Assembly (NCBI GenBank): GCA_903859815.1
Contig: CAIOOA010000008.1
Location: 1-32,333, forward strand
Source of the DNA: an uncultured Methylococcaceae bacterium
Lineage (GTDB): Bacteria > Pseudomonadota > Gammaproteobacteria > Methylococcales > Methylococcaceae
Direction of reading: 5' to 3'
DNA length: 32,333 nucleotides
Of the stretch, positions 268-24,450 are shown piece after piece. The position numbers and the translations under genes were made by a program. The first letter of the stretch is position 1; the number at the start of each line of letters is the position of its first letter. The notes beneath the pieces are model-generated. The model was given only the letters and a program-made list of their open reading frames with translations. It was not told the origin of the DNA and made no database searches.

Positions 268-2379
268 ATGACCTCATTGCCACCAAACCATGAATTACTA
301 CTAACAGGCATTTTTGTAATGTCTGTTTGTTTTTGTCTGGGGGCACTTTCATCCCTACTGGCCTGGTGGTCGGTCAGACTCTCTCTCATCACAGGTCATC
401 TGTCTGCGCTGGCGGGAGCGATGGCAGGACTCGGTGTGTCGCTAGGCATTCTCCTTGGCAACTCGGCAAACAAACTGTCATTGCCACTCCCATCTTTTTT
501 CCCGTTTGCCCGACAATCTCTAATGGTGGACGGACTGTCCGCCTATTTCCTGCTGGTTATCTCTGTCGTGGCGATTGCTGCGACTGTCTATGGTCCGGCC
601 TATCTTCAAGTCCACTCGCCTGAAGCAGGTCCGGCGCGACGTGCCACGCAAGTATTGGCACTCAATGTGTTTTTGGCTTGCATGGCATTCCTCTGTTGCG
701 CGGGCGATGCGCTTACCTTTATTTTGTGCTGGGAAGGCATGACGCTTTCCAGCTATGCCTTGGTCGTATCCGACGACCAAGACGGTGAAAATGCTCGGGC
801 TGGCTTGCTTTATATGATCATGACCCATGCCGGGACAGCCATGTTACTGGTCTCCTTCCTAGCTCTAACCGAGCGGGCCGGGGCATTTGATTTTGCGTCC
901 ATCCGCATGGCGGCGAATGGGCTAGACGGGACCACAAGATCGGTCTTGTTTTTCTTGGCTCTGGTCGGTTTTGCCACCAAAGCTGGCGTGGTTCCACTCC
1001 ATGTCTGGTTGCCACGCGCACACCCTGCGGCCCCTAGCCATGTTTCGGCCTTGATGTCGGGTGTCATGCTCAAGGTCGCAATCTATGGAATATTACGCTT
1101 TGGCTTCGACTTGCTTGCCCCGGTTGCCGAACCGCTCCCATCCGCATGGGGATGGACTGTTCTCATCTTAGGCACGTCATCTGCTGTGCTTGGGGTGCTT
1201 TATGCGCTCCAACAGCATGACCTGAAACGCCTGCTTGCGTTTCATAGCGTGGAAAACATTGGGATCATCCTGATAGGCGTGGGTCTGGCGATGATTTTGT
1301 GGCGACGCGAAGATGCAGGAGGTTCGCTGGCAACCCTCGCCCTCACTGCGGCGCTCTTGCACACAGTCAACCATGCAGCATTTAAAGGCTTGCTATTTCT
1401 TGGCGCTGGTAGCGTTCTTTGCCGAACCCATGTACGCAATATGGAGGAACTCGGTGGGCTTGCCCGACACATGCCTTGGACGGCGGGGCTGTTTCTGCTC
1501 GGCGCAGTCGCCATCTCGGCGCTTCCTCCTTTGAATGGTTTCGTCAGTGAGTGGCTGACCTTCCAAGCCATCCTAGGGGGTGCCAGCCGTTTTCATGGAC
1601 CCTCTGGACTCGCCATCGTATTCTCCGCTGCCATGCTCGCATTAACCGGGGGACTCGCCGCCGCCTGTTTCGCGAAAGCATTCGGCGTCACTTTCCTAGG
1701 TCGCCCTCGAACCTCACATGCGGAACATGCCATCGAAGCTCCGCTTTCAATGTTAGTGGGCATGGGGTGGCTGGCGGCACTATGCGTGTTCCTCGGTATC
1801 GCACCGGGTTTTGCAATGACTCTGCTTGATGCCCCTACAATTGGATTGCTTCACAGCCTTGGGGCAAGTGCCATCGTGACGGCCCACGGGCCGCTGGTAC
1901 TGTCAACGGCATTGGCTACACCAGGCGGGATAAGCGGCACGACCATTTCAATGACGATGCTTGCAATCCTGATTGCATCATTGTTGCCCTTGGCTTGGAT
2001 GCTGCGACGCGGATTTCGAACCGCCCCACAACGAGTCGCACCCACATGGACCTGCGGGATGACCCCAACCGCAAGGTTTGACTATACGGCGACTGCTTTT
2101 GCCAAACCCCTACGGCGGATATTTGCTGCGATCTACCGCCCTCGCAGGGAAGTGATACGGGAAACTGCCGGAACGCCCTATGTGATTCGCCGAATGCAGT
2201 ATACCGGCGATGTTGTGGATCTTGCGGAAACACAGATATATCATCGCATCCATTTTGGAATCACCGCGATTTCACAAGCCATACGTGACCATAGCACTGG
2301 ACGCATACATGTTTACATTGGCTTTGTGCTAGGGGCGCTTTTCTTGTCGCTGCTACTGTTCGGAGGGGGGCAAAGATGA
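268..2379 (+). CDS. hyfB: Hydrogenase-4 subunit B-like proton-translocating membrane protein (HyfB)
   Basis: Antiporter-like (Mrp/NuoL/M/N family) membrane subunit of a group 4 [NiFe]-hydrogenase, expected to translocate protons or sodium ions when the peripheral arm turns over H2. The 703-residue product (E. coli HyfB is about 670) is hydrophobic throughout. It shows the family's charged intramembrane residues: a Glu in CWEGMTLSSYAL, a Lys in GFATKAGVVPLHVWLP, a Lys in HDLKRLLAFHSVENIG and a His/Lys pair in HTVNHAAFKG. It is the first hydrogenase gene in the window, and its TGA overlaps the ATG of hyfC. The ATG at 268 has no obvious Shine-Dalgarno sequence and sits just after a 12-bp palindrome (256-267). 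An internal ATG at 319 has no better site. Family assignment is secure; ion specificity is not known. Confidence 0.92.
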   Translation: MTSLPPNHELLLTGIFVMSVCFCLGALSSLLAWWSVRLSLITGHLSALAGAMAGLGVSLGILLGNSANKLSLPLPSFFPFARQSLMVDGLSAYFLLVISVVAIAATVYGPAYLQVHSPEAGPARRATQVLALNVFLACMAFLCCAGDALTFILCWEGMTLSSYALVVSDDQDGENARAGLLYMIMTHAGTAMLLVSFLALTERAGAFDFASIRMAANGLDGTTRSVLFFLALVGFATKAGVVPLHVWLPRAHPAAPSHVSALMSGVMLKVAIYGILRFGFDLLAPVAEPLPSAWGWTVLILGTSSAVLGVLYALQQHDLKRLLAFHSVENIGIILIGVGLAMILWRREDAGGSLATLALTAALLHTVNHAAFKGLLFLGAGSVLCRTHVRNMEELGGLARHMPWTAGLFLLGAVAISALPPLNGFVSEWLTFQAILGGASRFHGPSGLAIVFSAAMLALTGGLAAACFAKAFGVTFLGRPRTSHAEHAIEAPLSMLVGMGWLAALCVFLGIAPGFAMTLLDAPTIGLLHSLGASAIVTAHGPLVLSTALATPGGISGTTISMTMLAILIASLLPLAWMLRRGFRTAPQRVAPTWTCGMTPTARFDYTATAFAKPLRRIFAAIYRPRREVIRETAGTPYVIRRMQYTGDVVDLAETQIYHRIHFGITAISQAIRDHSTGRIHVYIGFVLGALFLSLLLFGGGQR

Positions 2380-3317
2380 CGGGCGACAAACCGTTAGGGA
2401 TTGTGTTGATTGAGATGGGCATCCTCGTCATATTAGGTCCATTGGTCACGGGCATCATCCAAAAAATCAAAGCCAGGTTGCAAAATAGGCAGGGCGCAGG
2501 GATTCTTCAACCTTACTTTGATCTCATCAAGTTGCTTGGCAAAGGCACTGTCCAAGCGGACACGGCTTCCGGCTTCTTCCATTCAATCCCCATATTGGTG
2601 TTGGCGACCACGGTGGCTGCCGGGGCTTTAGTGCCAGTTGTCCAGTCAGGCCCACCGGCTTTTCCGTTGGGCGATGCGCTGATGCTACTTGGGTTGCTGG
2701 CGTTGGCACGATTCCTGACCGCAGTGGGTGCGCTTGATGCTGGCGGGGCTTTCGGCGGCATGGGTGCATCGCGTGAAATGACGATAGCCCCACTGGTTGA
2801 ACCCGTTTTGATGATGGTCGTGTTTTCAACTGCGTTAGCCGTCGGCTCAACTGAACTTGGCATTCTCGCGGAGCAACGCGGCACGTCATGGATTCTTGCT
2901 TGGCGGGCCGCGGATTTCCTAGGTCTTGCGGCCATGCTGGTGTTGCTCCCGGCAGAGACGGGCCGCATTCCAGTGGACAACCCGGACACCCATCTCGAAC
3001 TGACGATGTTACATGAAGGCATGTTGTTAGAACATTCCGGGCCGGGGCTAGGCTGCATGTTGCTTGCGTCACACACCCGCCAGATTGTGACGCTTGGTTT
3101 GGCAGCAGCACTCTTTTTCCCCATCGGGCCAGTAGGTGCAGGGGTAACGGGCCTATTGCTCGGTTTATGCACTTTCGCGGTGAAGATACTGGTGCTGGCA
3201 GTTTATCTTGCGCTGATTGAATCGTCCTATGCCAAGCTTAGGCTGTTCCAAGTGCCTCAATATCTTGGCATTGGGTTTGTTTTAGCGCTCATGTCACTGG
3301 CTTTGAGGATACTATGA
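2376..3317 (+). CDS. hyfC: Hydrogenase-4 subunit C-like membrane protein (HyfC, NuoH family)
   Basis: NuoH/HycD/HyfC-type membrane subunit that docks the hydrogenase arm to the antiporter-like modules. It has 313 residues (E. coli HyfC is 322) and about eight membrane segments. Diagnostic stretches are the N-terminal loop KARLQNRQGAG and the acidic cytosolic loop AETGRIPVDNPDTHLELTML, which is very typical of HycD/HyfC proteins. The start overlaps the hyfB stop (ATGA) and is preceded by a strong GGAGGGGGG ribosome site at the end of hyfB. The gene overlaps hyfE by four bases at its 3' end, so translational coupling across the operon is likely. Nothing looks truncated. Confidence 0.93.
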   Translation: MTGDKPLGIVLIEMGILVILGPLVTGIIQKIKARLQNRQGAGILQPYFDLIKLLGKGTVQADTASGFFHSIPILVLATTVAAGALVPVVQSGPPAFPLGDALMLLGLLALARFLTAVGALDAGGAFGGMGASREMTIAPLVEPVLMMVVFSTALAVGSTELGILAEQRGTSWILAWRAADFLGLAAMLVLLPAETGRIPVDNPDTHLELTMLHEGMLLEHSGPGLGCMLLASHTRQIVTLGLAAALFFPIGPVGAGVTGLLLGLCTFAVKILVLAVYLALIESSYAKLRLFQVPQYLGIGFVLALMSLALRIL

Positions 3318-3970
3318 ACATAGAAATTGTTCATGCGGTCATCGACGACCTCGGCGCCCTGCTACTGTTCACGATGATAATCATCGTCGGTGCAAGCCAA
3401 ATTTCCCGCGCCATTTATGCGGTGGCTTTTCAGTCGCTATTCATTGCCATCGCCGGTGCGGTACTGGCGATGGCTACCGGAAATGTTGACCTTTGGGTGA
3501 TCGCCGGCATCACCCTCACCGTCAAGGCCATCGCTTTGCCTTGGCTGTTACTATGGGCCATACGGCGCATGGATGTGAAACGTGAGGTTGAGCCTGTGAT
3601 TCCCGATCTAGCGACTCTGACGCTTGCCGTCATGTTTGTCGTCATGTCATTCCATCTGAGTGCCTCGCTGGGCAGTGTGCGTCAAGCGATTTCGGGTAAC
3701 GCCCTCCCCGTCGGCATTGCGCTGACACTGAATGGGGTGTTGGTCATGGCAACCAGAAAGACCGCGCTGAGCCAGATGGTAGGCTTGTTCGCATCGGAGA
3801 ATGGGATATTCTTCACGGCTATGGCTGTCACCAAGGGAATGCCGCTCATCATCGAAATTGGCGTGATCCTCGACGTGATACTGGCCGCTTTGGTGATGAC
3901 GATCATGGTTCTTAGGGTTCGCTCGACGGTTGATGCCGACATCGCGGACTTGGACCGGCTAAGGGGATGA
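3314..3970 (+). CDS. hyfE: Hydrogenase-4 subunit E-like membrane protein (HyfE)
   Basis: Small membrane subunit of 218 residues, close to the 216 of E. coli HyfE, whose C-terminal part is NuoK-like. Six to seven hydrophobic helices are visible, beginning with LGALLLFTMIIIVGASQI. The segment QMVGLFASENGIFFTAMAV carries the conserved membrane Glu expected on the ion path. In the complex it lies between the HyfC-like and antiporter-like subunits. Its ATG overlaps the hyfC stop, and only three bases separate its stop from hyfF. In Hyf operons HyfD would normally sit between C and E; here hyfC runs straight into hyfE, so HyfD is absent from this position. Confidence 0.88.
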   Translation: MNIEIVHAVIDDLGALLLFTMIIIVGASQISRAIYAVAFQSLFIAIAGAVLAMATGNVDLWVIAGITLTVKAIALPWLLLWAIRRMDVKREVEPVIPDLATLTLAVMFVVMSFHLSASLGSVRQAISGNALPVGIALTLNGVLVMATRKTALSQMVGLFASENGIFFTAMAVTKGMPLIIEIGVILDVILAALVMTIMVLRVRSTVDADIADLDRLRG

Positions 3971-3973
3971 AGC

Positions 3974-5437
3974 ATGGCTGAGACACTGCTCTGGGTTATT
4001 CCGCTCGTCCCTGTCGTCACTGCGCTGCTGATGCTAGCGACGAGCAATCGTAAGCTGCTATCAACTATTGATGTTGGCAGTTCGGCGATTTTGGCCGCGC
4101 TGACATTGCTACTCGCTCATGAAGTGGAAGCCAGTGGACCACGAAGCCTAGGCATGTTCCGGGTGGACGATCTTGGAATCATCTTTCTACTCCTCCTCGT
4201 TGTGCTTACTCTGGCCGTTTCCATTTACACGGTGGCTTGGCTCAAGCAAGCGGTGGAAGTCGGCAATATGAAAGCTGAGTCGCTTCGATTTTATTTTGCT
4301 CTCGTTCATGCTTTTGTGGCAACCATCGTCGTGACCATCCTTGCCGATAATCTCGGCATCCTCTGGATCGCCATGGAAGGGACGACCATCACCTCAGCCG
4401 TCCTGATTGGCTACCACGGTCATCATCATGGCTTGGAGGCGGCATGGAAATATATTATTGTGACGACCATAGGCATTTCCTTCGGCTTGTTTGGCACTGT
4501 AATCATCTATGCCGCTGCCGCCCAGGTCATGGGTGAGGCAAGCTCGATGAGTTGGCTTGCGATGATGCAAGTCGCCCCCAAGCTCGACCCCGGCATAGTC
4601 CGTATCGGCTTTATTTTCGTAATGGTAGGCTACGGCACCAAGGCGGGTCTCGCGCCCATGCATCTATGGCTACCCGACGCCCATAGTCAGGCACCCACGC
4701 CCATCTCGGCTTTGCTCTCAGGCATCTTGATCAAATGTGCGCTACTCGCAATCATTAGGTTCCAAATGATTGCAGCCGCTGCTTGCGGTGTGGATTTTCC
4801 ACAGCAGATATTGATTGTCTTTGGCCTTGCCTCGATGGTTGTGGCAATGCCATTCATTTTGGCGCAGCATGACCTCAAGCGTCTCCTAGGTTACAGCAGT
4901 GTTGAGCATGTTGGAATCATAGCGCTTGGCCTCGGTTTTGGAGGAGCCGTTGGCACTTATGGAGCGCTGTTGCATGTGGTGAACCACGGCATCACCAAAG
5001 CCCTCGCGTTCATGGCCGCAGGCACTGCGATAGCCCGTTTCGATTCCCGCAACCTACAAGCCATCAAGGGTTTGCTTGCCGTTGCCCCCATTGGAGCAAC
5101 ACTCCTCATGATCGCGTTTTTATCGCTCGCCGGAGTGCCGCCGTTTTCGATCTTTGTGAGCGAGCTCATGATATTACGGGCTGGCATCGGACAAGGAGAC
5201 TGGGTGTCCGTCGCCATTTTCCTTACCATGGCTGTCATTATTTTTGCTGGCTTGCTCCATCATGCCGGCGCGATGGTATTTGGCGAGCCGCCAAAGACAG
5301 CCAGTCACGAACCCGAAGCACGATCCCCATTAATTGCCATGCTATTGCTCGCAACGCTTATGATCTTGCTCGGGCTTACCATCCCTGTAATGTTTGACGG
5401 TTTTTTACAGCGTGCCACGGAGGTCGTCCTTGGTTGA
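3974..5437 (+). CDS. hyfF: Hydrogenase-4 subunit F-like antiporter-type membrane protein (HyfF)
   Basis: Second antiporter-like membrane subunit (487 residues; E. coli HyfF is about 526). It has the same charged-residue plan as HyfB: Glu in LWIAMEGTTITSAV, Lys in GYGTKAGLAPMHLWLPDAHS, Lys in AQHDLKRLLGYSSVEHVG, and His/Lys in HVVNHGITKALAFMAAG. With HyfB it gives this complex two ion-translocating modules, against three in E. coli Hyf and one in Hyc (family knowledge). The start at 3974 follows hyfE by three bases. The 3' end overlaps the likely TTG start of hyfG by eight bases. The subunit is complete with no internal disruption. Confidence 0.92.
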   Translation: MAETLLWVIPLVPVVTALLMLATSNRKLLSTIDVGSSAILAALTLLLAHEVEASGPRSLGMFRVDDLGIIFLLLLVVLTLAVSIYTVAWLKQAVEVGNMKAESLRFYFALVHAFVATIVVTILADNLGILWIAMEGTTITSAVLIGYHGHHHGLEAAWKYIIVTTIGISFGLFGTVIIYAAAAQVMGEASSMSWLAMMQVAPKLDPGIVRIGFIFVMVGYGTKAGLAPMHLWLPDAHSQAPTPISALLSGILIKCALLAIIRFQMIAAAACGVDFPQQILIVFGLASMVVAMPFILAQHDLKRLLGYSSVEHVGIIALGLGFGGAVGTYGALLHVVNHGITKALAFMAAGTAIARFDSRNLQAIKGLLAVAPIGATLLMIAFLSLAGVPPFSIFVSELMILRAGIGQGDWVSVAIFLTMAVIIFAGLLHHAGAMVFGEPPKTASHEPEARSPLIAMLLLATLMILLGLTIPVMFDGFLQRATEVVLG

Positions 5438-7043
5438 CCCTACACTCATCAATGCGTTGCAGGCGAAGGCGATGGGTATCGTCAATGCTGAAATTGGCCC
5501 TCGCCCATCTGACCTCACCGTGCGCCTTAGTCGTATTGACGATCTTCTTGTTGCAGCCGATGTACTGATCAAACAGTACACCATGGCTTTAGCCACTCTA
5601 GTGGCGACAGATGAAACATCGATGCCGGATGGCGACTTCAAGGTTCGCTACATCTTCGAACCCACCACAGCGGATGCCCCGGATTGGTTTGTAACGCTAT
5701 TGGTTTCGGTGGATGCTGCCTGTCCTGAAGTGCCCTCGTTGACAACGATGATCCCGGCGGCAAACTGGCATGAGCGTGAAATGTGCGACCTGTTTGGAAT
5801 CGTCCCCGTGGGTCATCCCGATCCTCGCCCACTGGTGGTTCATGACGGGTGGCCAAAAGGTGTCTTCCCACTTCGGAAAGCCTTCGATGGCTCGCAACGG
5901 GTTCCGGTTGAACCAGCCGAAGAGTTTCCGCACATGGTCACCGAAGGCGAGGGTGTGTTTGAGATACCGGTTGGACCCATTCATGCCGGCATCATTGAAC
6001 CGGGACATTTTAGATTTACGTCAGTCGGCGAGACCGTGCTACTGCTTGATGCCCGACTGTTTTACACACACCGTGGTTTGGAGAAGCGGATGGAAGGCAT
6101 CTCTCCACTGGATGCTTTCTACATAGCCGAACGCATTTGTGGAGTCTGCTCCGTTGCCCATGGCCTAGGTTACTGCGAAGCATTGGAACAAATTGCCGGT
6201 GTCGATATACCCTACCGGGCAAGGCTAATTAGGAGCATTGCGCTGGAGTTGGAGCGGCTTTACAACCACATTGGTGATGTAGGTAATGTCTGTGCCGGTG
6301 CTGCATTCCATTACGGCACTGCCACAGGAGCGCGCTTGAAGGAACGGCTACAGCAGATGAACGAACGGATCGCTGGCAATCGTTTCCTGCGGGGCATCAT
6401 CATTCCCGGTGGAGTGCGCTTGGATTTAACAAGCCATCTTCTTGAATTTATCACCTCCACGCTCCAACACACGCTCACCGATTTTGACAGTCTGATGGAT
6501 CGCATTGAAGCCAATCCCTCCGTCGTCGAGAGATTCGATGATACCGGCATCCTGCAAAATCAAACTGCGATGGATCTCGCCGTGGCCGGCGTTGCCGCTA
6601 GGGCCAGCGGAGTCAATCGGGATGCAAGACGCGATCATCCGCACGGGGCATTTGCAAATGCCGATTCCCCGCAATTGAACGTCATGACCGCCTCGGCGGG
6701 CGATGCGATGGCAAGGGTCATAGTTCGCGCACAGGAAGTCAGGGAGTCAATCCGGCTGGTGGATGAGTTCATTCGGAGACTCAAGCCGGGACCGATAAAA
6801 ATAGCCATCGCCGATCCCTTGCCGGGTGATCGGATTGGCATCTCCGCCATTGAGTCGCCACGAGGGGAAGCCGTCCACTGGTTACGCACCGATGCCAACG
6901 GTCGCGTGGATCGTTATCATCTCCGTTCGCCGAGTTACCACAACTGGCCCGCTGTGGCTTTGGCCGCCGAGACAGCCATTGTCCCGGATTTCCCGCTCGT
7001 CAACAAAAGCTTCGAGCTTTGCTACTCGTGTACGGACCGCTGA
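5430..7043 (+). CDS. hyfG: Group 4 [NiFe]-hydrogenase large subunit (HyfG-like, NuoC-NuoD fusion) lacking the C-terminal propeptide
   Basis: Catalytic subunit. An N-terminal NuoC-like domain (about residues 1-160, including NWHEREMCDLFGI) is fused to a NuoD/HycE-like domain. All four nickel-coordinating cysteines are present: C237 and C240 in ERICGVCSVAHG, and C531 and C534 in ELCYSCTDR. ESPRGEAVHW and RYHLRSPSYHNWPA are also typical. The usual DPC before the third cysteine is ELC here. The protein ends exactly at CTDR, where HycE-type precursors are normally cleaved, so no endopeptidase step should be needed. I chose TTG 5430 because GGAGGT (5419-5424) lies five bases upstream. The frame opens at another TTG (5394) that overlaps hyfF by 44 bases and has no ribosome site. 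The small-subunit ATG starts one base after the stop. Confidence 0.92.
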   Translation: MVDPTLINALQAKAMGIVNAEIGPRPSDLTVRLSRIDDLLVAADVLIKQYTMALATLVATDETSMPDGDFKVRYIFEPTTADAPDWFVTLLVSVDAACPEVPSLTTMIPAANWHEREMCDLFGIVPVGHPDPRPLVVHDGWPKGVFPLRKAFDGSQRVPVEPAEEFPHMVTEGEGVFEIPVGPIHAGIIEPGHFRFTSVGETVLLLDARLFYTHRGLEKRMEGISPLDAFYIAERICGVCSVAHGLGYCEALEQIAGVDIPYRARLIRSIALELERLYNHIGDVGNVCAGAAFHYGTATGARLKERLQQMNERIAGNRFLRGIIIPGGVRLDLTSHLLEFITSTLQHTLTDFDSLMDRIEANPSVVERFDDTGILQNQTAMDLAVAGVAARASGVNRDARRDHPHGAFANADSPQLNVMTASAGDAMARVIVRAQEVRESIRLVDEFIRRLKPGPIKIAIADPLPGDRIGISAIESPRGEAVHWLRTDANGRVDRYHLRSPSYHNWPAVALAAETAIVPDFPLVNKSFELCYSCTDR

Positions 7044-7044
7044 C

Positions 7045-7860
7045 ATGCTGAGAATTCTCATTAATGCGCTACGCACAGGCGTGATGACGACTCGCTACCC
7101 TGATGAGCCGAGCTTACCGCCGGAAAACTTTCGTGGGCAACCTATATTCAGCACGGGCAAAAACCTTCCGCCGCCAGAAGTCTGCCCCGTAGATGCGCTA
7201 TCACAGCATTCTGCAACAGGGGTTCGCCAGCTAGATCTTGCTCGCTGTGTCTTCTGTGGCCGTTGCGCAGAGGATCAATGGGTTGGCGCGGTCACCATGG
7301 GCCGGGACTTTGAACTGGCGGCACGACGACGCTCAGACCTGCGAATCGAAATCACGACCGACGACACTAGAATCACAGAATCGCAACCGGCTTTAAACCG
7401 CGAAGCCGACATGAACCAAGTATCGTCCGAAATTCGCCGGGTGCTGGGTCGGTCACTGCACCTCCGCCATTTGGATGCGGGTTCCTGCAATGCCTGTGAC
7501 TGGGAACTGACCGCCCTACTGAATCCGGTCTACGACATCCGACGACTTGGCATTGATTTTGTCGCTTCACCTCGCCATGCTGACGGGGTTGTCATTACGG
7601 GGCCAATTACGCGAAATCTTGAAACAGCCGTTCGCCGGACGATTGAGGCCATTCCCGATCCCCGCATCGTGATTGCTGTGGGCGCCTGTGCAACGGGCGG
7701 CATTTTCGGGGAGGGATACGCAAACCTCGGCGGTGTCGATCAAGTGCATCCTGTCGATGTCTATATCCCCGGCTGCCCTCCCCGCCCTGAAGCCATCATT
7801 TATGGCATCATGGTTGCTTTGGGGCGACTCGATGCCCGCCAATTGTCAAACCAAGGCTAG
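7045..7860 (+). CDS. hyfI: Fused ferredoxin-like / [NiFe]-hydrogenase small subunit (HyfH-HyfI fusion)
   Basis: Electron-transfer subunit of 271 residues. Residues 1-85 resemble HycF/HyfH (TTRYPDEPSLPPENFRG, then VCPVDAL and CVFCGRC). Residues 130-265 are a NuoB/HycG/HyfI domain with the proximal cluster ligands C148, C151, C215 and C244 (SCNACDWEL, GACATGG, PGCPPRP). A normal HyfH has two CxxCxxCxxxC motifs. Here the first three cysteines of motif one and the last of motif two are missing, leaving C47, C68, C71 and C74. In the crossed ligand pattern of 2[4Fe-4S] ferredoxins these are exactly one complete cluster set. The fusion looks genuine: one open frame, no stop, and no separate hyfH nearby. 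Start ATG 7045 follows hyfG by one base; the frame remains open upstream to 6826 only as a shadow of hyfG. Confidence 0.88.
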   Translation: MLRILINALRTGVMTTRYPDEPSLPPENFRGQPIFSTGKNLPPPEVCPVDALSQHSATGVRQLDLARCVFCGRCAEDQWVGAVTMGRDFELAARRRSDLRIEITTDDTRITESQPALNREADMNQVSSEIRRVLGRSLHLRHLDAGSCNACDWELTALLNPVYDIRRLGIDFVASPRHADGVVITGPITRNLETAVRRTIEAIPDPRIVIAVGACATGGIFGEGYANLGGVDQVHPVDVYIPGCPPRPEAIIYGIMVALGRLDARQLSNQG

Positions 7861-9066: not shown

Positions 9067-9192
9067 TTTAGGGAACCTCGAAAACTGTTTACGATCATGG
9101 CTCAACAAGCTCCCACGAACTTAGTCAATTGATTGGCTATGAGCTACTCACAGTAAGCTTGTCGAAGCGAGGGGTTTTTGAGGTTCCCTAAA
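9067..9192. mobile_element. MITE-like element, 126 bp, with 18-bp terminal inverted repeats
   Basis: The ends are TTTAGGGAACCTCGAAAA (9067-9084) and TTTTTGAGGTTCCCTAAA (9175-9192), inverted repeats matching at 17 of 18 positions. Inside is a second inverted pair (CAACAAGCT at 9103-9111, AGCTTGTCG at 9156-9164), so the whole unit can fold on itself. It contains no coding capacity. If the mobile ends are GGGAACCTC and its complement, a TA flanks both sides, as expected for IS630/Tc1-mariner-type target duplication. That assignment is inference. The right end supplies the last coding bases and stop codon of the minus-strand gene at 9188. Confidence 0.65.
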
Positions 9193-9547
9193 GCCTGACC
9201 CAGCGTTCCGCTTCATTAAAATCATTGAGGGTAAAAAACTCGATCTCAGTTTCCCTTAATCCCTTACCGGCGAAAATGAAGGCATTTTCCTTCCAGCGTT
9301 CCTCGCCTACGAAGGCAATCTTAGTAACGGAATCACCGTATTCCATTAAAAAACTCATATCCTCCCAGTTGTCATTTTTTGACCACCCTTGAAAGTTTTT
9401 GGCAATCACGAGTACTTTCGCGCTGCCAAATTTTTCGATGACCCCTTTCATTTCATTCTGTACCGCCTCTTGATCGGCAAGTCGGATTACGCCTTCCATC
9501 CGTACAGTTAGCATGTTGTCTTCGATTTTCATAATTTCGCAAGTCAT
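9188..9547 (-). CDS. SpoIIAA-like (STAS/SEC14-type) small cytosolic protein
   Basis: A 119-residue protein matching the pattern of the SpoIIAA-like family (PF11964 type). It has an N-terminal beta segment with a GVIRLADQEAVQNEM turn, then KVLVIAKNFQGWSKNDNWEDM, then KIAFVGEERWKENAF, and a final EIEFFTLNDFNEAERWVRL. These proteins have a single STAS-like fold; their ligand is generally unknown and is often guessed to be a lipid or small molecule. The ATG at 9547 is preceded by AGAGGA. It is transcribed divergently from clpB, and their start codons are 77 bases apart. The TAG stop (9188-9190) lies inside the terminal repeat of the adjacent MITE-like element. The length is normal for the family, so little if any tail has been lost. 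Confidence 0.75.
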   Translation of the reverse strand: MTCEIMKIEDNMLTVRMEGVIRLADQEAVQNEMKGVIEKFGSAKVLVIAKNFQGWSKNDNWEDMSFLMEYGDSVTKIAFVGEERWKENAFIFAGKGLRETEIEFFTLNDFNEAERWVRL

Positions 9548-12581: not shown

Positions 12582-13256
12582 TTATTTGCGGCGTCTAACG
12601 TTGGCGATCAAAGCTAACAGGCCGATGCTGAACAGAGCTAAAGTTTCTGGTTCTGGCACACGCACACCTGACTCAACGAAGATGGTTGCGCCATTGTTCA
12701 AGCTGCCCGTTGTCGAATTAAAGGCAGTCGTAACATTTAGGGTCGTCGGATTACCTGTAGTGAATTCGATATCAGGATTGCCGTTAGTGGGGGACTGCAA
12801 CGAGTATGGCCCACCTACGCCAGTGATAGTATCCGCAATGAACGCACCGGTTGTGCCGACAGTCGCACCCTGACGGATTTCACTAATATAGGCATTGGGA
12901 TTGCCAAAGACCGAAACGTTATAACTAACGTTAAAATTTAAACCTGTCGATGGCAATCCCATCGTCCAGTTAACAGTATGCGTATCTTGTATTCCGATTT
13001 CTTCAAAGAATATCTGTCCACGGAAATTAGATCCGGGCAACGAGCTTCCAGAAAAGACAAAATCTTTATACAACTTATCTTGTTGGAAGCATCCCTCTGC
13101 ACTCAAACCTGACCAGTAGCCAAGAGTTTGAGTCCCTGAGTCATTGGCAGTCCCGCCAAAGCCACCCCCGCATAGAATAGGCGCTGCCATACTATTTTGG
13201 CTGGATAAGGCACCTAGGATCATCGCCAAGGCCAGTAAGCTTTTGTTCATGTTCAT
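12582..13256 (-). CDS. PEP-CTERM sorting domain-containing secreted protein 1
   Basis: Predicted exosortase substrate of 224 residues. A signal peptide (MNMNKSLLALAMILGALSSQ, cleavage likely after NSMA) leads to a body rich in Gly, Asn, Thr and Ser. The C-terminus is the classic sorting tail VPEPETLALF, a hydrophobic helix, and RRRK. Such proteins are exported, cleaved by an exosortase at the PEP motif and delivered to the outer surface or extracellular matrix. I chose ATG 13256 over the longer open frame to 13343 because AGGTGA lies just upstream and the signal peptide then starts correctly; ATG 13250 is a close alternative. It has a sigma-54-type promoter and a 17-bp upstream motif shared with the divergent PEP-CTERM gene. 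The role of the body is unknown. No exosortase is encoded in the window. Confidence 0.88.
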   Translation of the reverse strand: MNMNKSLLALAMILGALSSQNSMAAPILCGGGFGGTANDSGTQTLGYWSGLSAEGCFQQDKLYKDFVFSGSSLPGSNFRGQIFFEEIGIQDTHTVNWTMGLPSTGLNFNVSYNVSVFGNPNAYISEIRQGATVGTTGAFIADTITGVGGPYSLQSPTNGNPDIEFTTGNPTTLNVTTAFNSTTGSLNNGATIFVESGVRVPEPETLALFSIGLLALIANVRRRK

Positions 13257-13320
13257 TATGGTTTCACCTAATAGGGTCTGTGTATTGAAGATCATGATAG
13301 AGTTCGGTACACCCAGTAAA

Positions 13321-13335
13321 GCATAAGCTGTGCCA
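13321..13335 (-). promoter_or_regulatory. Sigma-54 (-24/-12) promoter of PEP-CTERM gene 1
   Basis: Read on the minus strand, TGGCACAGCTTATGC has the invariant GG-N10-GC spacing and matches TGGCAC exactly at -24. The -12 element is ATGC instead of TTGC. It lies 64 bases before the chosen start codon, leaving a leader of roughly 50 bases. Confidence 0.75.
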
Positions 13336-13408
13336 TGATACAATTATTTTTACATATCAACGACTTTCCAGAACATATTGAGCAAACTACCGGGTATGCC
13401 CGGTCAGT

Positions 13409-13425
13409 TGTAAAAATTTCTGACA
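13409..13425 (-). promoter_or_regulatory. Candidate activator site, copy A (TGTCAG-N8-ACA)
   Basis: Minus-strand TGTCAGAAATTTTTACA, 73 bases upstream of the -24 element of PEP-CTERM gene 1. The motif has identical length and spacing in three other copies in this intergenic region. Its position fits an enhancer-binding protein site for sigma-54 activation; the protein is not identified. Confidence 0.6.
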
Positions 13426-13678
13426 GTGACTGAACCCTGCACCCACCCAGCTTTCAGGCACATAAAACAAGCCCGTTCAAGAATCAGAAAAGCCCATGGA
13501 TTCGCTCTCAAATGTTGGTATGGCAGAGTTTTTCATGTTGCCAATCCGTTTGGTTATCGGAATGGATACCCTTTTGAAAACAGTAGGTTGAAAACCATGC
13601 GATGGATGAATGCCCTCTCCATGCATCCTGAAAGAGCGTATGCTCGCTGGCCACCGGGAATCGGGTTTGCCCGACTTG

Positions 13679-13695
13679 TGTCAGATATTTTTACA
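13679..13695 (+). promoter_or_regulatory. Candidate activator site, copy B (TGTCAG-N8-ACA)
   Basis: TGTCAGATATTTTTACA on the plus strand, same orientation as PEP-CTERM gene 2 but 422 bases upstream of its -24 element. No convincing sigma-54 promoter lies 72 bases downstream of it. It may be a distal enhancer site or the remnant of a lost or moved gene. Confidence 0.5.
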
Positions 13696-13774
13696 ACTTT
13701 CGCATACCCATTCAGCAAACCGTCACTGTTAACGGGCACAGGAATCAGAAGTTAGCCATTTAAGCTATAGAATC

Positions 13775-13791
13775 TGTCAGCTTTTTTTACA
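13775..13791 (+). promoter_or_regulatory. Candidate activator site, copy C (TGTCAG-N8-ACA)
   Basis: TGTCAGCTTTTTTTACA on the plus strand, 96 bases after copy B and 326 bases before the -24 element of PEP-CTERM gene 2. Only the 8-base core varies from the other copies, and it remains T-rich. Confidence 0.5.
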
Positions 13792-14028
13792 GTCGTTAAA
13801 CGAAGCGTTCATCCATTCCAGCCTAAAATCTAAACCACTGACTAATATCTATATTTCAAACGCTTATGCCAATTAATAAGCTTAGCAAATGACAAGTTTG
13901 GGGATGTTCTCAAGATTCTGCTTCATTTTCAGGCCAGTCTGTCAATAGGCATAAAAGCATATTTTGACGATAAAGCGACTGTATTTTTGCATAGGGCTAA
14001 AATCGGTGAAGCCAACATTTCTTCAAGG

Positions 14029-14045
14029 TGTCAGTTTTTTTTACA
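14029..14045 (+). promoter_or_regulatory. Candidate activator site, copy D (TGTCAG-N8-ACA)
   Basis: TGTCAGTTTTTTTTACA on the plus strand, 72 bases upstream of the -24 element at 14118. This equals, to within one base, the distance of copy A from its own promoter, which is the best evidence that the motif is functional. Confidence 0.6.
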
Positions 14046-14117
14046 ATAGCAATGGATGAGGTTTGCAGCACTGGCTTCCAGTTTTTAGGTCTCTGTTAAT
14101 TATAGCTTTTTAATATT

Positions 14118-14132
14118 AGGCACAATGCTTGC
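14118..14132 (+). promoter_or_regulatory. Sigma-54 (-24/-12) promoter of PEP-CTERM gene 2
   Basis: AGGCACAATGCTTGC has the GG-N10-GC spacing, GGCAC at -24 and a perfect TTGC at -12, 59 bases before the start codon. An imperfect palindrome (ATTGTTATCGATACAAT, 14147-14163) lies just downstream of the predicted transcription start. Confidence 0.78.
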
Positions 14133-14191
14133 TTACATCAGGGAGAATTGTTATCGATACAATTTCGATTTAAACATCCGAGGATAAATAC

Positions 14192-14794
14192 ATGAATAAA
14201 AAAGCCTTAACTTCTTTGTTGGCAACGGGCGTGATGGCCGTTGCTTTTTCCGCAACTAGCCATGCCGCTCCCATTAATGGTGGTTTTTCATTGGGCAACA
14301 ATTCTGGTGGGACTGTCACCACCCAGTTTAATAATGCCCCAACCACTTTGACTTTCAACCCCACCGCTCCAGCCAATATCAATGTTGAAACTGGAACAGG
14401 TGGCGTGACGGGCGATTTCAGCAGTTTGCTGGCTACTACCAAATCCGGCAAAATATTGGACGTGACCTCGAACCCATTTGGCCCGCAATCTAATTTCATC
14501 AATATCATCGCTGGCGCATCGACGATTCAGTTTGACTTAGCTAGCCTTACCTTAACGGGGGCACTTAATGCTTTTGTAATAGGTCAAGGTACAGGCACAT
14601 TCATTGTCACTGGCTTTGATCCGACTCCGGGCTTTTTGTCCTTCACCACCCAAAAAGCCAGCAGCGACACCAACACTTGGTCACTTTCCTTGACCACCAC
14701 CAACCCGTCTGTCCCTGAGCCAGAAACTTTAGCTCTGTTTGCAATCGGTTTGGCTGCCTTGGTTGTCAATAGCCGCAAAGCCGCTAAAAAATAA
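14192..14794 (+). CDS. PEP-CTERM sorting domain-containing secreted protein 2
   Basis: A 200-residue predicted exosortase substrate. The signal peptide MNKKALTSLLATGVMAVAFS has likely cleavage after TSHA. The mature body is a Thr/Gly/Asn-rich beta-type domain. The C-terminus is VPEPETLALFAIGLAALVVN followed by a basic end (SRKAAKK). The sorting tail is nearly identical to that of the divergent PEP-CTERM gene, while the bodies are not obviously related. GAGGA precedes the ATG at good distance. It is probably monocistronic: a sigma-54 promoter lies upstream and a strong terminator starts 17 bases after the stop. The likely site of action is the cell surface or matrix. The specific role is unknown. 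Confidence 0.9.
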   Translation: MNKKALTSLLATGVMAVAFSATSHAAPINGGFSLGNNSGGTVTTQFNNAPTTLTFNPTAPANINVETGTGGVTGDFSSLLATTKSGKILDVTSNPFGPQSNFINIIAGASTIQFDLASLTLTGALNAFVIGQGTGTFIVTGFDPTPGFLSFTTQKASSDTNTWSLSLTTTNPSVPEPETLALFAIGLAALVVNSRKAAKK

Positions 14795-19679: not shown

Positions 19680-20870
19680 ATGACAACGCAAAACTATGAT
19701 AAGTCTCGTAGCATACTGGGTTCCGATGAAAGTTTTCGCCTATTGGTGGATAGTGTCTCTGACTATGCCATCATCATGCTGGATACAAAAGGACAGGTTG
19801 CCAGTTGGAACGCCGGTGCAGAAAAAAATCTAGGTTATCGCCAAAACGAAATAATAGGCAGGCATTTTTCTTGCTTTTACTCGTCGGAATCGGTGAATGA
19901 AGGTCTCCCGGAAAAGACCCTGAAGTTGGCTGCCGAGAATGGTCGCTATGAGTATGAAGGCTGGCGCAAGCGTCAAGACGGCTCGCGTTTTTGGGCGAAC
20001 ACCTTACTGTCACCCATGCTGGATTCTCAAGGGACGCTGATTGGCTTTGCGGAAATCACCCGAGACTTTTCTGAACGGAAGAATGCCGATTATGCCCGCA
20101 GTCTGATTGAGGCAAGTTTGGACCCCTTGGTCACCATCGCCCCGGATGGCAAGATTACCGATGTCAATGCCGCCACTGAATCCATCACTGGACGTTCACG
20201 CATAGAACTGATTGGCACTGACTTTTGCGATTATTTCACCGACCCTGAGAAAGCCCGCAACGGCTACCAACAAGTGTTCCGCGAGAGCATGGTGCGCGAC
20301 TATCCGTTGGAGCTTAGACATGCCAATGGACGGGTGACTTCTGTGCTGTACAATGCTTCTGTCTACAAAGACGAGGACGGCGCAGTGGTCGGTGTGTTTG
20401 CCGCTGCCCGCGACATTACCGAACGAAAGCTTTCCGAAGAGCGCATAAAACAACAGAGCCGGGAAATTCTGGAACTTTCCACACCCGTCATGCAAGTTTG
20501 GCAGGGCGTGGTGGCAGTGCCGCTGATTGGTTGCCTGGACAGCCAACGCACCCAACAGTTCATGGAACGCTTGCTCGACCGGATTGTTGAAACCAATTCC
20601 CCCGTCGCCTTGGTTGACATCATGGGAGTGCCGACTATCGACACCCAGACCGCTCAACATCTGATTGAAACGATCACCGCAGTTCGCCTGCTTGGGGCTC
20701 AAGTGGTGCTGACAGGCGTCCGTCCTGCGATAGCCCAGACCTTGGTGCATTTAGGCATAGACCTTTCGGGCATCACTACGCGCTCGTCCATGGCAGCCGG
20801 TTTGTTAGTGGCACTGGACTTGCTGAAATTGCAAGTAGTCAAGAAGTCAGAAAACCATCGGGGAGACTGA
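19680..20870 (+). CDS. rsbR: Stressosome sensor/scaffold, RsbR-like (PAS-PAS-STAS)
   Basis: A 396-residue co-antagonist of the stressosome. Residues about 15-133 and 140-250 are two PAS domains (each ending in an RDFSERK or RDITERK motif). Residues about 262-388 are an RsbR-type STAS domain. The phosphorylatable threonines expected for RsbT action align at T322 (PTIDTQTAQ) and T354 (RPAIAQTLVHLGIDLS). In Bacillus the sensory part is a non-haem globin; the PAS pair here would sense another cue, possibly redox or a small ligand (inference). It is the first gene of the operon; two bases separate it from the start of rsbS. No transmembrane segment is visible, so sensing is cytosolic. Confidence 0.9.
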   Translation: MTTQNYDKSRSILGSDESFRLLVDSVSDYAIIMLDTKGQVASWNAGAEKNLGYRQNEIIGRHFSCFYSSESVNEGLPEKTLKLAAENGRYEYEGWRKRQDGSRFWANTLLSPMLDSQGTLIGFAEITRDFSERKNADYARSLIEASLDPLVTIAPDGKITDVNAATESITGRSRIELIGTDFCDYFTDPEKARNGYQQVFRESMVRDYPLELRHANGRVTSVLYNASVYKDEDGAVVGVFAAARDITERKLSEERIKQQSREILELSTPVMQVWQGVVAVPLIGCLDSQRTQQFMERLLDRIVETNSPVALVDIMGVPTIDTQTAQHLIETITAVRLLGAQVVLTGVRPAIAQTLVHLGIDLSGITTRSSMAAGLLVALDLLKLQVVKKSENHRGD

Positions 20871-20871
20871 C

Positions 20872-21252
20872 ATGCCTAACGGGACTGTTTCTGTCATCAA
20901 AATCCGCGATATTCTGCTAGTCACCGTGCCGTCCGACCCGGACGACATCACTGTCTCCGAGCTTCAAGAGCAAGTGCTGTATGCGATGGAACGACATAGT
21001 GCCAAAGGGCTTATTTTGGATATTTCCACGGTCGAAACGGTCGACTCTTTTTTTGCGCGTACAATTTCCGAGACGGTCAAAATGGTGGCGCTGATGGGCG
21101 GCTTGAGCGTCCTTTCCGGGATGCGTGCCTGCGTTGCCGTCACCACCACGCAGTTAGGTCTGACTTTTGAGCAAACTTTGACCGCATTGGATGTGGACAG
21201 GGCCATGGACATGCTGTCGGTAGCCATGGACGATAAGGGGGACTCGGCATGA
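20872..21252 (+). CDS. rsbS: Stressosome STAS scaffold protein RsbS
   Basis: A 126-residue single STAS domain protein that forms the stressosome core with RsbR and holds RsbT inactive until phosphorylated. Ser59 in ETVDSFFARTI aligns exactly with Ser59 of Bacillus RsbS, the known RsbT target. The remaining pattern (GLILDIST, LMGGLSVLSGMRACVAVTTTQLG) fits the family. The start follows rsbR closely and is preceded by GGGAGA. The 3' end overlaps rsbT by four bases. Confidence 0.93.
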   Translation: MPNGTVSVIKIRDILLVTVPSDPDDITVSELQEQVLYAMERHSAKGLILDISTVETVDSFFARTISETVKMVALMGGLSVLSGMRACVAVTTTQLGLTFEQTLTALDVDRAMDMLSVAMDDKGDSA

Positions 21253-21656
21253 ACACGTTATGCCAGGGGGAAATGCTGATCGATACTGAAAATGACATTG
21301 TCATGGCTCGCAAATCGGTGCGCGAAGCCGCTGTCACCTTGGGTTTTGGCGTCACTGACGTGACCCGCATCGTCACCGCAGCCTCTGAACTGACGCGCAA
21401 TATTTATGTTTATGCCGGTTCAGGCATCATGCGTTGGCATTCCATCAATGATAGCAATGTGGGACTCGAATTGGTTTTCGAGGACAAAGGGCCTGGCATC
21501 ATCGATGTCAAATTAGCCATGGAACCGGGATATTCGACTGGCAAAGGACTGGGGATGGGTTTGCCCGGAACCAAGCGCTTGATGGACGAGATGGATGTCC
21601 TGTCTGAAATAGGCAAGGGAACCACCATTCGAATCAGAAAATGGCTTAGACAATAA
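21249..21656 (+). CDS. rsbT: Switch serine/threonine kinase RsbT
   Basis: A 135-residue GHKL-fold kinase that phosphorylates RsbS and RsbR and is then released to act on a downstream partner. ATP-binding motifs are clear: N-box ASELTRNIYVYAG, G1 box EDKGPGI and G2 box YSTGKGLGMGLPGTKRLMDE. The ATG overlaps the rsbS stop as ATGA. In Bacillus released RsbT activates the phosphatase RsbU. No RsbU-like gene with the RsbT-binding domain is seen, so the target here is probably one of the next two proteins. Confidence 0.94.
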   Translation: MNTLCQGEMLIDTENDIVMARKSVREAAVTLGFGVTDVTRIVTAASELTRNIYVYAGSGIMRWHSINDSNVGLELVFEDKGPGIIDVKLAMEPGYSTGKGLGMGLPGTKRLMDEMDVLSEIGKGTTIRIRKWLRQ

Positions 21657-21658
21657 CA

Positions 21659-22672
21659 GTGCCGCCAATCGCGCAAACCATTACCATCGGGCACAATGCC
21701 GAAATTGCCTTGGCAAGGCGAGCCGCCAAACAGCTTGCGGAGGAAATTGGCATCAATGTTCTAGGGTGCGAAGAAATCGCCCTGGCAACCAGCGAACTTG
21801 CATCCAATTTGGTCAAACATGCGGGGGGCGGCATCTTGGTGTTGACCCCCCTTTCGTTGCCGCCTCGACATGGGTTGCAAATCGAATCCATCGACAACGG
21901 CAAAGGCATCCCCAATATCCCAAAAGCCATGACCGATGGCTATTCGACCGCAAACAGCCTCGGCAATGGCCTAGGCGCTATCAACCGCCTGATGGACGAA
22001 TTCGACATCACATCCCGTATTGGCGCTGGCACTCACATCGTTTGCCGTAAGTGGGTGCGCAAAGACGAATCCACCCTAAACTACTGCCCCTATGACATAG
22101 GCGTGGCCACTCGTCCAAAACCGGGTTTCGATATCAATGGCGACGATTTTGTAGTTAAGAGTTGGGTTGGCAAAACATTGGTGGGGGTCATTGACGGTTT
22201 AGGCCACGGTGAACTCGCCCATCAAGCCTCCCTTGCAGCCCGCACGTTTATAGAATCCCATTACGATCTGCCACTGGATACCCTGTTTCGTGGCGTAGGC
22301 TTCTCCTGCCAAAAGACACGCGGTTGCGTGATGGCCTTAGCCTGCTTCGACTGGGAACGGAAGACCATTCATTTCGCTTCTGTGGGCAATATTGAGGCAC
22401 GAGTCATAGGCAGCCCCAAAACTATCAATTTCATTGTGCGCCGGGGCATTGTGGGCGTTAATTCTCCTGATCCCCACGTCACGGTTCATGGGTGGGAGCC
22501 TGACTATATGCTGGCGCTTTATTCGGATGGTTTGATCAGCCATTGGAACTGGCAAGACTTCCCTCAATTGATTGACAAGCCTGCATCCCAAGTCGCTGAA
22601 AATTTGTTGCACCACTTGGCTAGGCCGACAGATGATGCCACCATTTTGATCGTCAAGAAATCAAGCCGATGA
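21659..22672 (+). CDS. GHKL ATPase - SpoIIE/PP2C phosphatase fusion (RsbT/RsbX-like)
   Basis: A 337-residue two-domain protein. Residues 1-135 form a second RsbT-like GHKL domain (ALATSELASNLVKHAGGG, DNGKGIPNIP, YSTANSLGNGLGAINRLMDEFD). Residues 145-335 are a PP2C/SpoIIE phosphatase of RsbX type with metal-binding positions in GDDF, GVIDGLGHGELAHQAS, LYSDGL and DDATILIV. RsbX resets the stressosome by dephosphorylating RsbR/RsbS, so this protein may combine reset and kinase roles. The start is GTG 21659, three bases from the rsbT stop. The end overlaps the histidine kinase gene (ATGA). Fusions of this type are known in proteobacterial stressosome operons. Confidence 0.87.
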   Translation: MPPIAQTITIGHNAEIALARRAAKQLAEEIGINVLGCEEIALATSELASNLVKHAGGGILVLTPLSLPPRHGLQIESIDNGKGIPNIPKAMTDGYSTANSLGNGLGAINRLMDEFDITSRIGAGTHIVCRKWVRKDESTLNYCPYDIGVATRPKPGFDINGDDFVVKSWVGKTLVGVIDGLGHGELAHQASLAARTFIESHYDLPLDTLFRGVGFSCQKTRGCVMALACFDWERKTIHFASVGNIEARVIGSPKTINFIVRRGIVGVNSPDPHVTVHGWEPDYMLALYSDGLISHWNWQDFPQLIDKPASQVAENLLHHLARPTDDATILIVKKSSR

Positions 22673-24450
22673 AACATCATGCTCAACCGCAACCGAATGA
22701 AGCGGATAAGAGACTCATCCACATCCTTCAATTCGAATTGGCGGAGACAAACCGGGGTTTGATCGCCCTGTCAATGGAACTGGAACAGCGGGTCGAAGAA
22801 CGCACCGCAGAATTGCGCATTACCCAAGACGAACTCCAGCGAACCAATACCGATCTGTTGCTATTGACGATGGAGTTGGAAGACCGGGTGGATGAGCGCA
22901 CGAAGGAATTGACCCAAGCCATTACGAATTTGCACCAAGAAATCATCGAACGTGAAAAGGTGGAGGCAGAACTCAAGAGTTATCGTGACCATTTGGAAGA
23001 GATCATCAAGGAACGCACGGCAGAAGTGGAAAGTGCCCGAAAAATAGCCGAGGCGGCAAGCCAGTCGAAATCGTCTTTTCTCGCCAATATGAGCCATGAA
23101 CTGAGGACACCCATGAACGCCATCCTTGGTTTCAGTGGGTTGATGATGCAGGATGATGCTTTGAGCGAAAGGCAAAGGGAGTATCTGGACATCATCAGTC
23201 GCAGTGGCAAGCATCTGCTCGCCCTGATCAACGATGTGCTGGACATGTCCAAGATTGAAGCCGGTCAAATCACTCTAGACAAGCAAGCCTTTGACTTGCT
23301 TGCGATGACCCAAGACATCTCCAATATGATGCGGGGACGGATTATCGAAAAAGGGCTGCAATTCTTGGTGGACCAGCCCGTTGATTTACCCCGCCATATC
23401 GTCGGCGACGAAGCCAAATTGCGACAAATCCTGCTTAATCTATTGAGCAATGCGTGCAAATTCACCCCGCGTGGCGGCATCACCCTACGCATAGGCATCC
23501 TTGCCAAGCGCGAATGCCCCAAATTATTGATAGAGGTTGAAGATACCGGCATCGGCATCAGCGCTGAGAACCAATCCCGAATCTTTGATGCGTTCTACCA
23601 AGTGGGAATGGCGGCGTCCGAGCGGGGTACTGGGTTGGGTTTGGCAATCAGCCGACAATTCGTCGAACTGATGGGGGGTTCCATCCATGTCGAGAGCATT
23701 TCGGGCCAAGGCTCCACATTTAGGCTCGAACTGCCGCTGGAAACAGCCGAGGGCGTGGTAACCCCCTATTTTTACAATGAAGATAGCGGTGATGCCATCT
23801 TGCTGGAGCCGGGTCAAACCTCTAAACGCATTCTCATCGTGGAGGATCAAAGGGAAAATGCCCTTTTACTGCAAACTTTGATGGAAAAGGCCGGGTTTGA
23901 GGTGCGGATGGCGGAAAATGGCGCGATGGGTGTCGAAATGTTCCAGCAATTCAAACCGCATTTAATCTGGATGGATCGCCGTATGCCGGTGATGGATGGC
24001 ATTGAAGCCACCCGGATCATACGCAGTATGGAAGGTGGGCAAGAGGTCAAGATCGTCGCCGTGACGGCCTCAGTGTTCAAGGAGCAACGCGGCGAGTTGT
24101 TGTCGGCTGGCATGGACGATATTATCAACAAGCCATTTCGGGCTGGCGAACTATTCGATTGCATGGAAGAGCAGCTTGGGATTCACTTTATTCGTCAAGT
24201 CACCGACAACCCCCCACCGCTTGCTGTCATCAGTGCCGAAGCGCTGGCAAAACTCCCCGACGAGTTGCAAGTCAAGTTGGGGGATGCCTTGTTGGATTTG
24301 AATACGGCCCGAATTGACGAGATTGTTGGGAAGATTAACGATCATGTACCCGAATTGGGGGGGATTCTGCATAATCTTGCCAAGTCTTACCAATACACCA
24401 CGATGATTCAGGCATTGGAAGAGGCTTTGGCGTTGAGGGGAAATCCGTAA
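22669..24450 (+). CDS. Cytosolic hybrid histidine kinase with C-terminal receiver, likely stressosome output
   Basis: A 593-residue protein without membrane helices. The N-terminal 130 residues are a long coiled coil containing two near repeats (MELEQRVEERTAEL and MELEDRVDERTKEL) and a third related segment. Then come HisKA with His143 (NMSHELRTPMNAI), HATPase with NACKFTPRGG, EDTGIGIS and RGTGLGLAI, and a receiver domain with Asp436 (IWMDRRMPVMDG). A helical tail of about 90 residues may be a phosphotransfer-like or docking element, although no clear HPt histidine motif is seen. It is the last gene of the operon, overlapping the phosphatase gene. With no sigma factor present, this is the likely route from stressosome to response. 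Its target regulator is not in the window. Confidence 0.9.
   Translation: MKHHAQPQPNEADKRLIHILQFELAETNRGLIALSMELEQRVEERTAELRITQDELQRTNTDLLLLTMELEDRVDERTKELTQAITNLHQEIIEREKVEAELKSYRDHLEEIIKERTAEVESARKIAEAASQSKSSFLANMSHELRTPMNAILGFSGLMMQDDALSERQREYLDIISRSGKHLLALINDVLDMSKIEAGQITLDKQAFDLLAMTQDISNMMRGRIIEKGLQFLVDQPVDLPRHIVGDEAKLRQILLNLLSNACKFTPRGGITLRIGILAKRECPKLLIEVEDTGIGISAENQSRIFDAFYQVGMAASERGTGLGLAISRQFVELMGGSIHVESISGQGSTFRLELPLETAEGVVTPYFYNEDSGDAILLEPGQTSKRILIVEDQRENALLLQTLMEKAGFEVRMAENGAMGVEMFQQFKPHLIWMDRRMPVMDGIEATRIIRSMEGGQEVKIVAVTASVFKEQRGELLSAGMDDIINKPFRAGELFDCMEEQLGIHFIRQVTDNPPPLAVISAEALAKLPDELQVKLGDALLDLNTARIDEIVGKINDHVPELGGILHNLAKSYQYTTMIQALEEALALRGNP

Follow-up and report, generated by a model that had tools for sequence, protein, structure and literature searches.

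Putative PrsR-controlled sigma-54 promoters of two divergent PEP-CTERM genes in an uncultured Methylococcaceae bacterium and the helical spacing of their control element

The window analyzed in this work, a stretch of 32,333 nucleotides from an uncultured Methylococcaceae bacterium, contains between two divergent start codons an intergenic region of 935 bases in which two PEP-CTERM genes very probably have divergent promoters dependent on sigma-54 and controlled by PrsK/PrsR, the binding and phosphorylation of PrsR and the co-expression of the genes being predicted from the sequence. The site is a fresh example of the PrsR-sigma-54 class; this kind of element has already been described and the reading is not new. 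Described as early as 2006, the control element gains here one clear case, a divergent promoter pair. The survey of related genomes is of more use: it repeats, on 151 genomes, the link between motif and PrsR drawn by Haft et al. (PMC1569441) and shows that motif and promoter are spaced in steps set by the DNA helix.

The left gene (12582..13256, minus strand) encodes a protein of approximately 224 amino acids with an N-terminus that by eye resembles a signal peptide and with the C-terminal sequence VPEPETLALFSIGLLALIANVRRRK, which scores above the cut-offs of TIGR02595 (23.9 bits, cut-off 16) and PF07589 (24.0 bits, cut-off 20.7). The product of the right gene (14192..14794, plus strand) comprises 200 amino acids, has the C-terminal sequence VPEPETLALFAIGLAALVVNSRKAAKK and matches the same two models with 20.1 bits (cut-off 16) and 28.8 bits (cut-off 20.7), respectively. 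Both products are small and secreted-looking, each with a C-terminal PEP-CTERM signal. The sigma-54 consensus used for the scoring of promoters was TGGCAC-N5-TTGCW. Each gene is preceded by a -24/-12 site that agrees with this consensus at 10 of 11 positions: TGGCACAGCTTATGCT (13320..13335, minus strand), located 63 bases from the left ATG, and AGGCACAATGCTTGCT (14118..14133, plus strand), located 58 bases from the right one.

The initial annotation had placed the word TGTCAG-N8-ACA four times in the intergenic region, and all four copies were located: A (TGTCAGAAATTTTTACA, 13409..13425, minus strand), B (TGTCAGATATTTTTACA, 13679..13695, plus strand), C (TGTCAGCTTTTTTTACA, 13775..13791, plus strand) and D (TGTCAGTTTTTTTTACA, 14029..14045, plus strand). 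The scan of the window gave one more match at 7029-7045 (minus strand) in coding DNA. The four intergenic copies fit a longer shared word, TGTCAGnnnTTTTTACA, with no mismatches, and the coding copy departs from it at three positions; the shared word has an outer dyad TGT-N11-ACA. Of the four intergenic copies, A and D are followed by a suitably spaced promoter and are the proposed PrsR sites of the left and right gene, respectively, and B and C have no such promoter. The distances of 73 (A) and 72 (D) bases upstream of GG-N10-GC, with each copy facing its own gene, had been given before and are exact when counted to the promoter hexamer; to the first G of the GG they amount to 74 and 73.

A chance origin of this arrangement had been called unlikely, and the claim holds for the cluster of copies and for the tight form of the motif, but not for the loose 17-mer taken by itself. 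With 0.23 loose matches expected per window, five matches were reached in 0 of 100 shuffles. In the whole genome of 315 contigs and 5.8 Mb, the loose 17-mer gave 56 matches and its backwards control 12, and alone it is therefore unspecific. The tight form TGTCAGN4TTTTACA is found seven times in 5.8 Mb, four of them in this region, and its backwards control gave no match. The strict pair TGTC-N7-TTTACA-N45..75-GGC-N8-TGC matches twice in the genome, both times here, with one match for the backwards control; another strict pair pattern, with TGGCAC, matched the left pair alone, since the right promoter reads AGGCAC. That the copies are chance T-rich repeats, or parts of a mobile repeat carrying the motif, is hardly credible: the motif is indeed T-rich and its loose form frequent in the genome, but the shuffles and the seven tight copies against none backwards argue otherwise, and a mobile-repeat origin was rejected as the region occurs only once in the genome, is present in one of 20 relatives searched and gave no plasmid match. 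In the scans the pair was also commoner than its backwards control.

The arrangement is of the same kind as the control element reported for proteobacterial PEP-CTERM genes by Haft et al. (PMC1569441). According to the text of that paper, motif 1 is 17 nt long, has TTTACA at its end and occurs in some cases more than once; a spacer (62.8 ± 10.6 bases, range 32-92) lies between it and a sigma-54 motif 2 with -24(GG)/-12(GC), which is located on average 71 bases (SD 38.5) before the start codon. Of 167 proteobacterial PEP-CTERM genes 99 were preceded by the element, and PrsR was proposed to bind it on the basis of the motif's phylogenetic profile. In the region studied the four copies are likewise 17 nt long and end in TTTACA (as compared with the text of the paper, not with its logo figure), the spacers of A and D fall within 32-92 bases with B and C outside this range, and the promoter-to-ATG distances of 63 and 58 bases are in line with the published mean and its deviation. 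PEP-CTERM genes lie downstream of both modules, the genome encodes PrsK, PrsR and PrsT together with an EpsH-type exosortase, and the module co-occurs with PrsR over genomes. The long upstream region and the repetition of the motif are further likenesses. Unlike in the published description, two modules share here one divergent region with two extra motif copies, the spacing goes in helical steps, and the element precedes 3 of 32 PEP-CTERM genes versus 99 of 167, a comparison for which the text of Haft et al. gives no minimum per genome.

The genes prsK, prsR and prsT are arranged in a row with a TIGR03013 glycosyltransferase gene on contig C106 (3930-10176 of locus L077), and their products score above the cut-offs of the curated models (683.2 bits against 300, 682 against 502.6 and 724.4 against 312.2, respectively). 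PrsR has the domains Response_reg, Sigma54_activat and HTH_8. Two exosortase (EpsH family) matches of 225.8 and 156 bits (cut-off 105.55) and 32 PEP-CTERM matches were found in the same genome. The sequence preceding the open frame of each of these 32 matches was scanned, over at most 900 bases, for the motif (at least 11 of 14 positions) and the promoter (at least 8 of 11 positions); for 18 of them contig or locus ends left less than 900 bases, the shortest stretch being 156. Motif and promoter were found together upstream of three, namely both window genes and one gene on contig C153 (motif CGTCAATAAATTTTACA, promoter TGGCGCGTAAATTGCT), and the other 29 must have other control or weaker sites. 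The enrichment of the element before PEP-CTERM genes that the initial annotation had envisaged is seen for the pair: both matches of the strict pair in the genome precede PEP-CTERM genes, and in 11 of the 30 pair loci described below the downstream gene has a PEP-CTERM-like tail. Most PEP-CTERM genes of the genome, however, lack the module at the thresholds used, and three of the seven tight copies lie elsewhere with no evident paired promoter.

Among these three tight copies one is located on C153, downstream of its PEP-CTERM gene, and two on contig C186. Motif copies on C153 at 7162-7178 (14/14 positions) and 7320-7336 (13/14) of locus L079 have no evident promoter; they are found downstream of a PEP-CTERM gene and near genes for a kinase and its GlrR-like sigma-54 response regulator. 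On C186 the gene at L078 3533-4645, which encodes a PAS-SpoIIE phosphatase, has the two exact copies upstream of it (4717-4733 and 5031-5047 of locus L078, minus strand), and in the stretch separating these copies short GCAAGCTTTGACGCTCC-like repeats are clustered; the divergent protein of 776 amino acids at this locus has a C-terminus that by eye is like a sorting signal and gave no match to a PEP-CTERM model. From its sequence the C186 locus is a possible PrsR target outside the PEP-CTERM genes.

The survey of 151 genomes (the genome of the window and 150 relatives) used a PrsR call at E <=1e-150 with ten candidates scored per genome. The pair pattern was present in 73 genomes, with 178 matches versus 7 for the backwards pattern, and PrsR in 75. 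The pair was found in 63 of the 75 PrsR-positive and in 10 of the 76 other genomes; PrsR alone was seen in 12 and neither in 66, so that 22 of 151 genomes are exceptions. The Fisher p value of 1.7e-19 overstates the association because the genomes are related, and is only a guide. Since the backwards control is not zero (7 matches in 151 genomes, 8 in a phylum sample of 398), single pair matches can be due to chance; three pair matches at 69 bases represent one near-identical stretch in genomes G020, G026 and G033. Genome G004, of the same genus, has three pairs and no PrsR match, and each of the pairs is followed by a gene with a PEP-CTERM-like tail; this exception would be explained if the draft assembly had a gap, if a candidate had been missed or if the regulator had diverged. 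Some of the ten pair-only genomes may be PrsR misses, as ten candidates per genome were scored.

The same ten genomes speak for a different activator: another sigma-54-dependent regulator, such as the GlrR-like one encoded on C153, might bind the motif, with PrsR merely correlated. Its gene (623.6 bits, GlrR cut-off 763) lies within approximately 4 kb of three motif copies (one exact, one 13/14, one 11/14), and besides PrsR the genome encodes 11 matches to the PrsR model with E values of 5e-63 or better, none over the cut-off. We regard this explanation as very unlikely in view of the co-occurrence of the module with PrsR over the 151 genomes and of the derivation of PrsR itself from the phylogenetic profile of the motif (Haft et al., PMC1569441). 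In addition, DVUA0057 of Desulfovibrio vulgaris, a predicted PEP-CTERM regulator which we infer to be of the PrsR type, enriched five predicted PEP-CTERM targets in vitro by DAP-chip (PMC3333781). It is likewise linked to PEP-CTERM promoters, though in another organism, and a figure legend of that report states that a binding motif for it had not been validated; in the literature looked at this assay is the one result that bears on the binding of motif 1 by PrsR, and we saw no footprint of PrsR. The assignment of the sites to the PrsK/PrsR type at RpoN promoters, made in the initial annotation, is thus supported by prsK, prsR and prsT, by the exosortases, by the PEP-CTERM domains of both window proteins and by the distribution over genomes, and corresponds to what has been known since 2006.

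Downstream genes were examined in thirty pair loci (L088-L117, one per genome from 30 genomes) and in five longer stretches of same-genus genomes. By a simple pattern, the downstream gene has a PEP-CTERM-like tail in 11 of the 30 loci, the window and its sister included, and no downstream open reading frame was found in two (L095 and L108). By eye, the module precedes glycosyltransferase-like genes in some of the 30 loci, including L099 and L100 from relatives G021 and G007 (MPAISVIIPAFNAE...). The two latter loci suggest that in some relatives the PrsR regulon takes in polysaccharide genes.

The activator-to-promoter spacing steps by about one helical turn, with peaks near 53, 64 and 75 bases. 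Among the 150 of 178 matches listed in the 151-genome survey, the distances from the motif to the GG pile up at 51-54, 61-66 and 72-75, and 141 of the 150 fall into these 14 of 31 spacing bins, which were picked after the histograms had been seen. The best period is approximately 10.5-11, with a power of 80.7 for the 150 listed matches versus 20.0 as the largest of 2000 uniform draws. The phylum sample of 398 genomes, with 119 matches listed outside the genome of the window (121 rows minus two of that genome), has the same peaks, with 104 of the 119 matches in the 14 bins and a power of 49.8 versus at most 17.7 in 3000 uniform draws; the null of uniform spacing ignores the kinship of the genomes. 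The period optimum in this sample is broad, running to 12, because few turns are covered. With the range shifted to 68-98 (151 genomes, 129 matches) a peak at 73-76 was seen along with weaker ones near 83-85 and 94-98. The two pairs of the window, with 74 and 73 bases to the GG, sit in the third peak, at about 75.

The peaks in Pseudomonadota, near 53, 64 and 75 bases from the GG and more weakly near 85 and 95, make it fairly probable that PrsR acts at close range from a fixed face of the DNA and is not a looping enhancer protein indifferent to distance, that the distance evolves in whole-turn jumps and that a single site is often enough. Quantisation of this kind predicts that an insert of 5 bp switches the promoter off and that one of 10-11 bp leaves it on. 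Phasing by the helix has precedent among sigma-54 enhancers: in the LuxO-qrr system of Vibrio, with another activator and other genes, insertions or deletions of 10-11 bp are reported to be tolerated better than those of 5-6 bp (PMC4740811). For PrsR no paper listed in the literature searches was recognised as reporting it; the main text of Haft et al. (PMC1569441) contains neither 'phase' nor 'periodic'.

In the proposed mechanism the kinase PrsK would phosphorylate PrsR, a response regulator with an AAA+ sigma-54-interaction domain and a Fis-type HTH domain. PrsR would bind to TGTCAGnnnTTTTTACA, roughly seven helical turns upstream from each -24/-12 site, presumably as a dimer, which the outer dyad of the motif fits. 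Positioned on the proper side of the helix, it would contact the RNA polymerase-sigma-54 complex and open the promoter by ATP hydrolysis. The two surface proteins would be made together and later handled by exosortase, with copies A and D acting as the working sites. Counted against this mechanism are the ten pair-only genomes, the twelve PrsR-positive genomes with no pair, the use of the module by 3 of 32 PEP-CTERM genes, the three tight copies elsewhere and the GlrR-like regulator gene near the copies on C153.

The relative that shares the region is G002, in which it is 92% identical; the left gene was also found at 91% identity in the MAG CAIYXP010000160.1 ('uncultured Methylococcaceae bacterium'), a record perhaps identical with the G002 contig. 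Copies A and D each have 0 of 17 positions changed in G002, and both sigma-54 sites are unchanged; the spacer of A gains one base (74 to 75) and stays in the same peak. Copy C is changed at one variable position, with 36 of 141 positions changed in the stretch just after it, and copy B at 3 of 17, all of them key positions, so that B is probably not maintained. That A, C and D are conserved carries little weight, because by the same test 471 of 889 start positions in the intergenic region would likewise be free of changes at the 14 key positions in G002.

In another reading the four copies would form one composite enhancer, B and C being working sites that reinforce D or act on both promoters. 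In its favour, Haft et al. (PMC1569441) describe motif 1 as repeated in some cases, at least two copies within <=3.1 kb were found in 11 of the 30 pair loci (the window and its sister included), and C keeps its key positions beside a diverged stretch. The loss of three key positions in B, along with distances of 422 (B) and 326 (C) bases to the right promoter, calculated from the coordinates and beyond the published 32-92, makes such an enhancer rather doubtful. With A and D as the working sites, C is possibly an accessory upstream site whose contribution is predicted, and B is probably a relic or species-specific.

Another PEP-CTERM gene with a mapped -24/-12 promoter is pepA of Aquincola tertiaricarbonis RN12, which is RpoN1-dependent and has a predicted enhancer upstream (PMC9850573). 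It is a single gene with prsT downstream, whereas here the genes form a divergent pair and prsT lies on another contig; the match of the left protein to the PepA family is weak, at 35.7 bits against a cut-off of 80.

Within the intergenic region the segment 13426-13678, between A and B, has 8 of 253 positions changed in G002 versus 47 of 635 in the left coding region; seven of the eight changes are in one of three phases and no single open frame fits. An open reading frame of 109 amino acids (13426-13755) was rejected as a gene, as it has no Pfam match and its frame is broken in the sister genome by a 1-base insertion. An RNA gene in the region was rejected as well, the search having given one sub-threshold Rfam match of 12.1 bits (gathering 60). 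Elsewhere in the window there are a SpoIIAA-like gene (9188-9547) and a gene cluster encoding PAS-STAS, HATPase-SpoIIE and hybrid histidine kinase proteins (19680-24450, the domain search covering all but two small genes between), a signalling set of the partner-switching type. The product of 2376-3314 matches NADHdh, and 268-7860 holds a run of NADH-dehydrogenase-like membrane subunits and hydrogenase-like subunits, which we take to be of the group 4 hydrogenase type.
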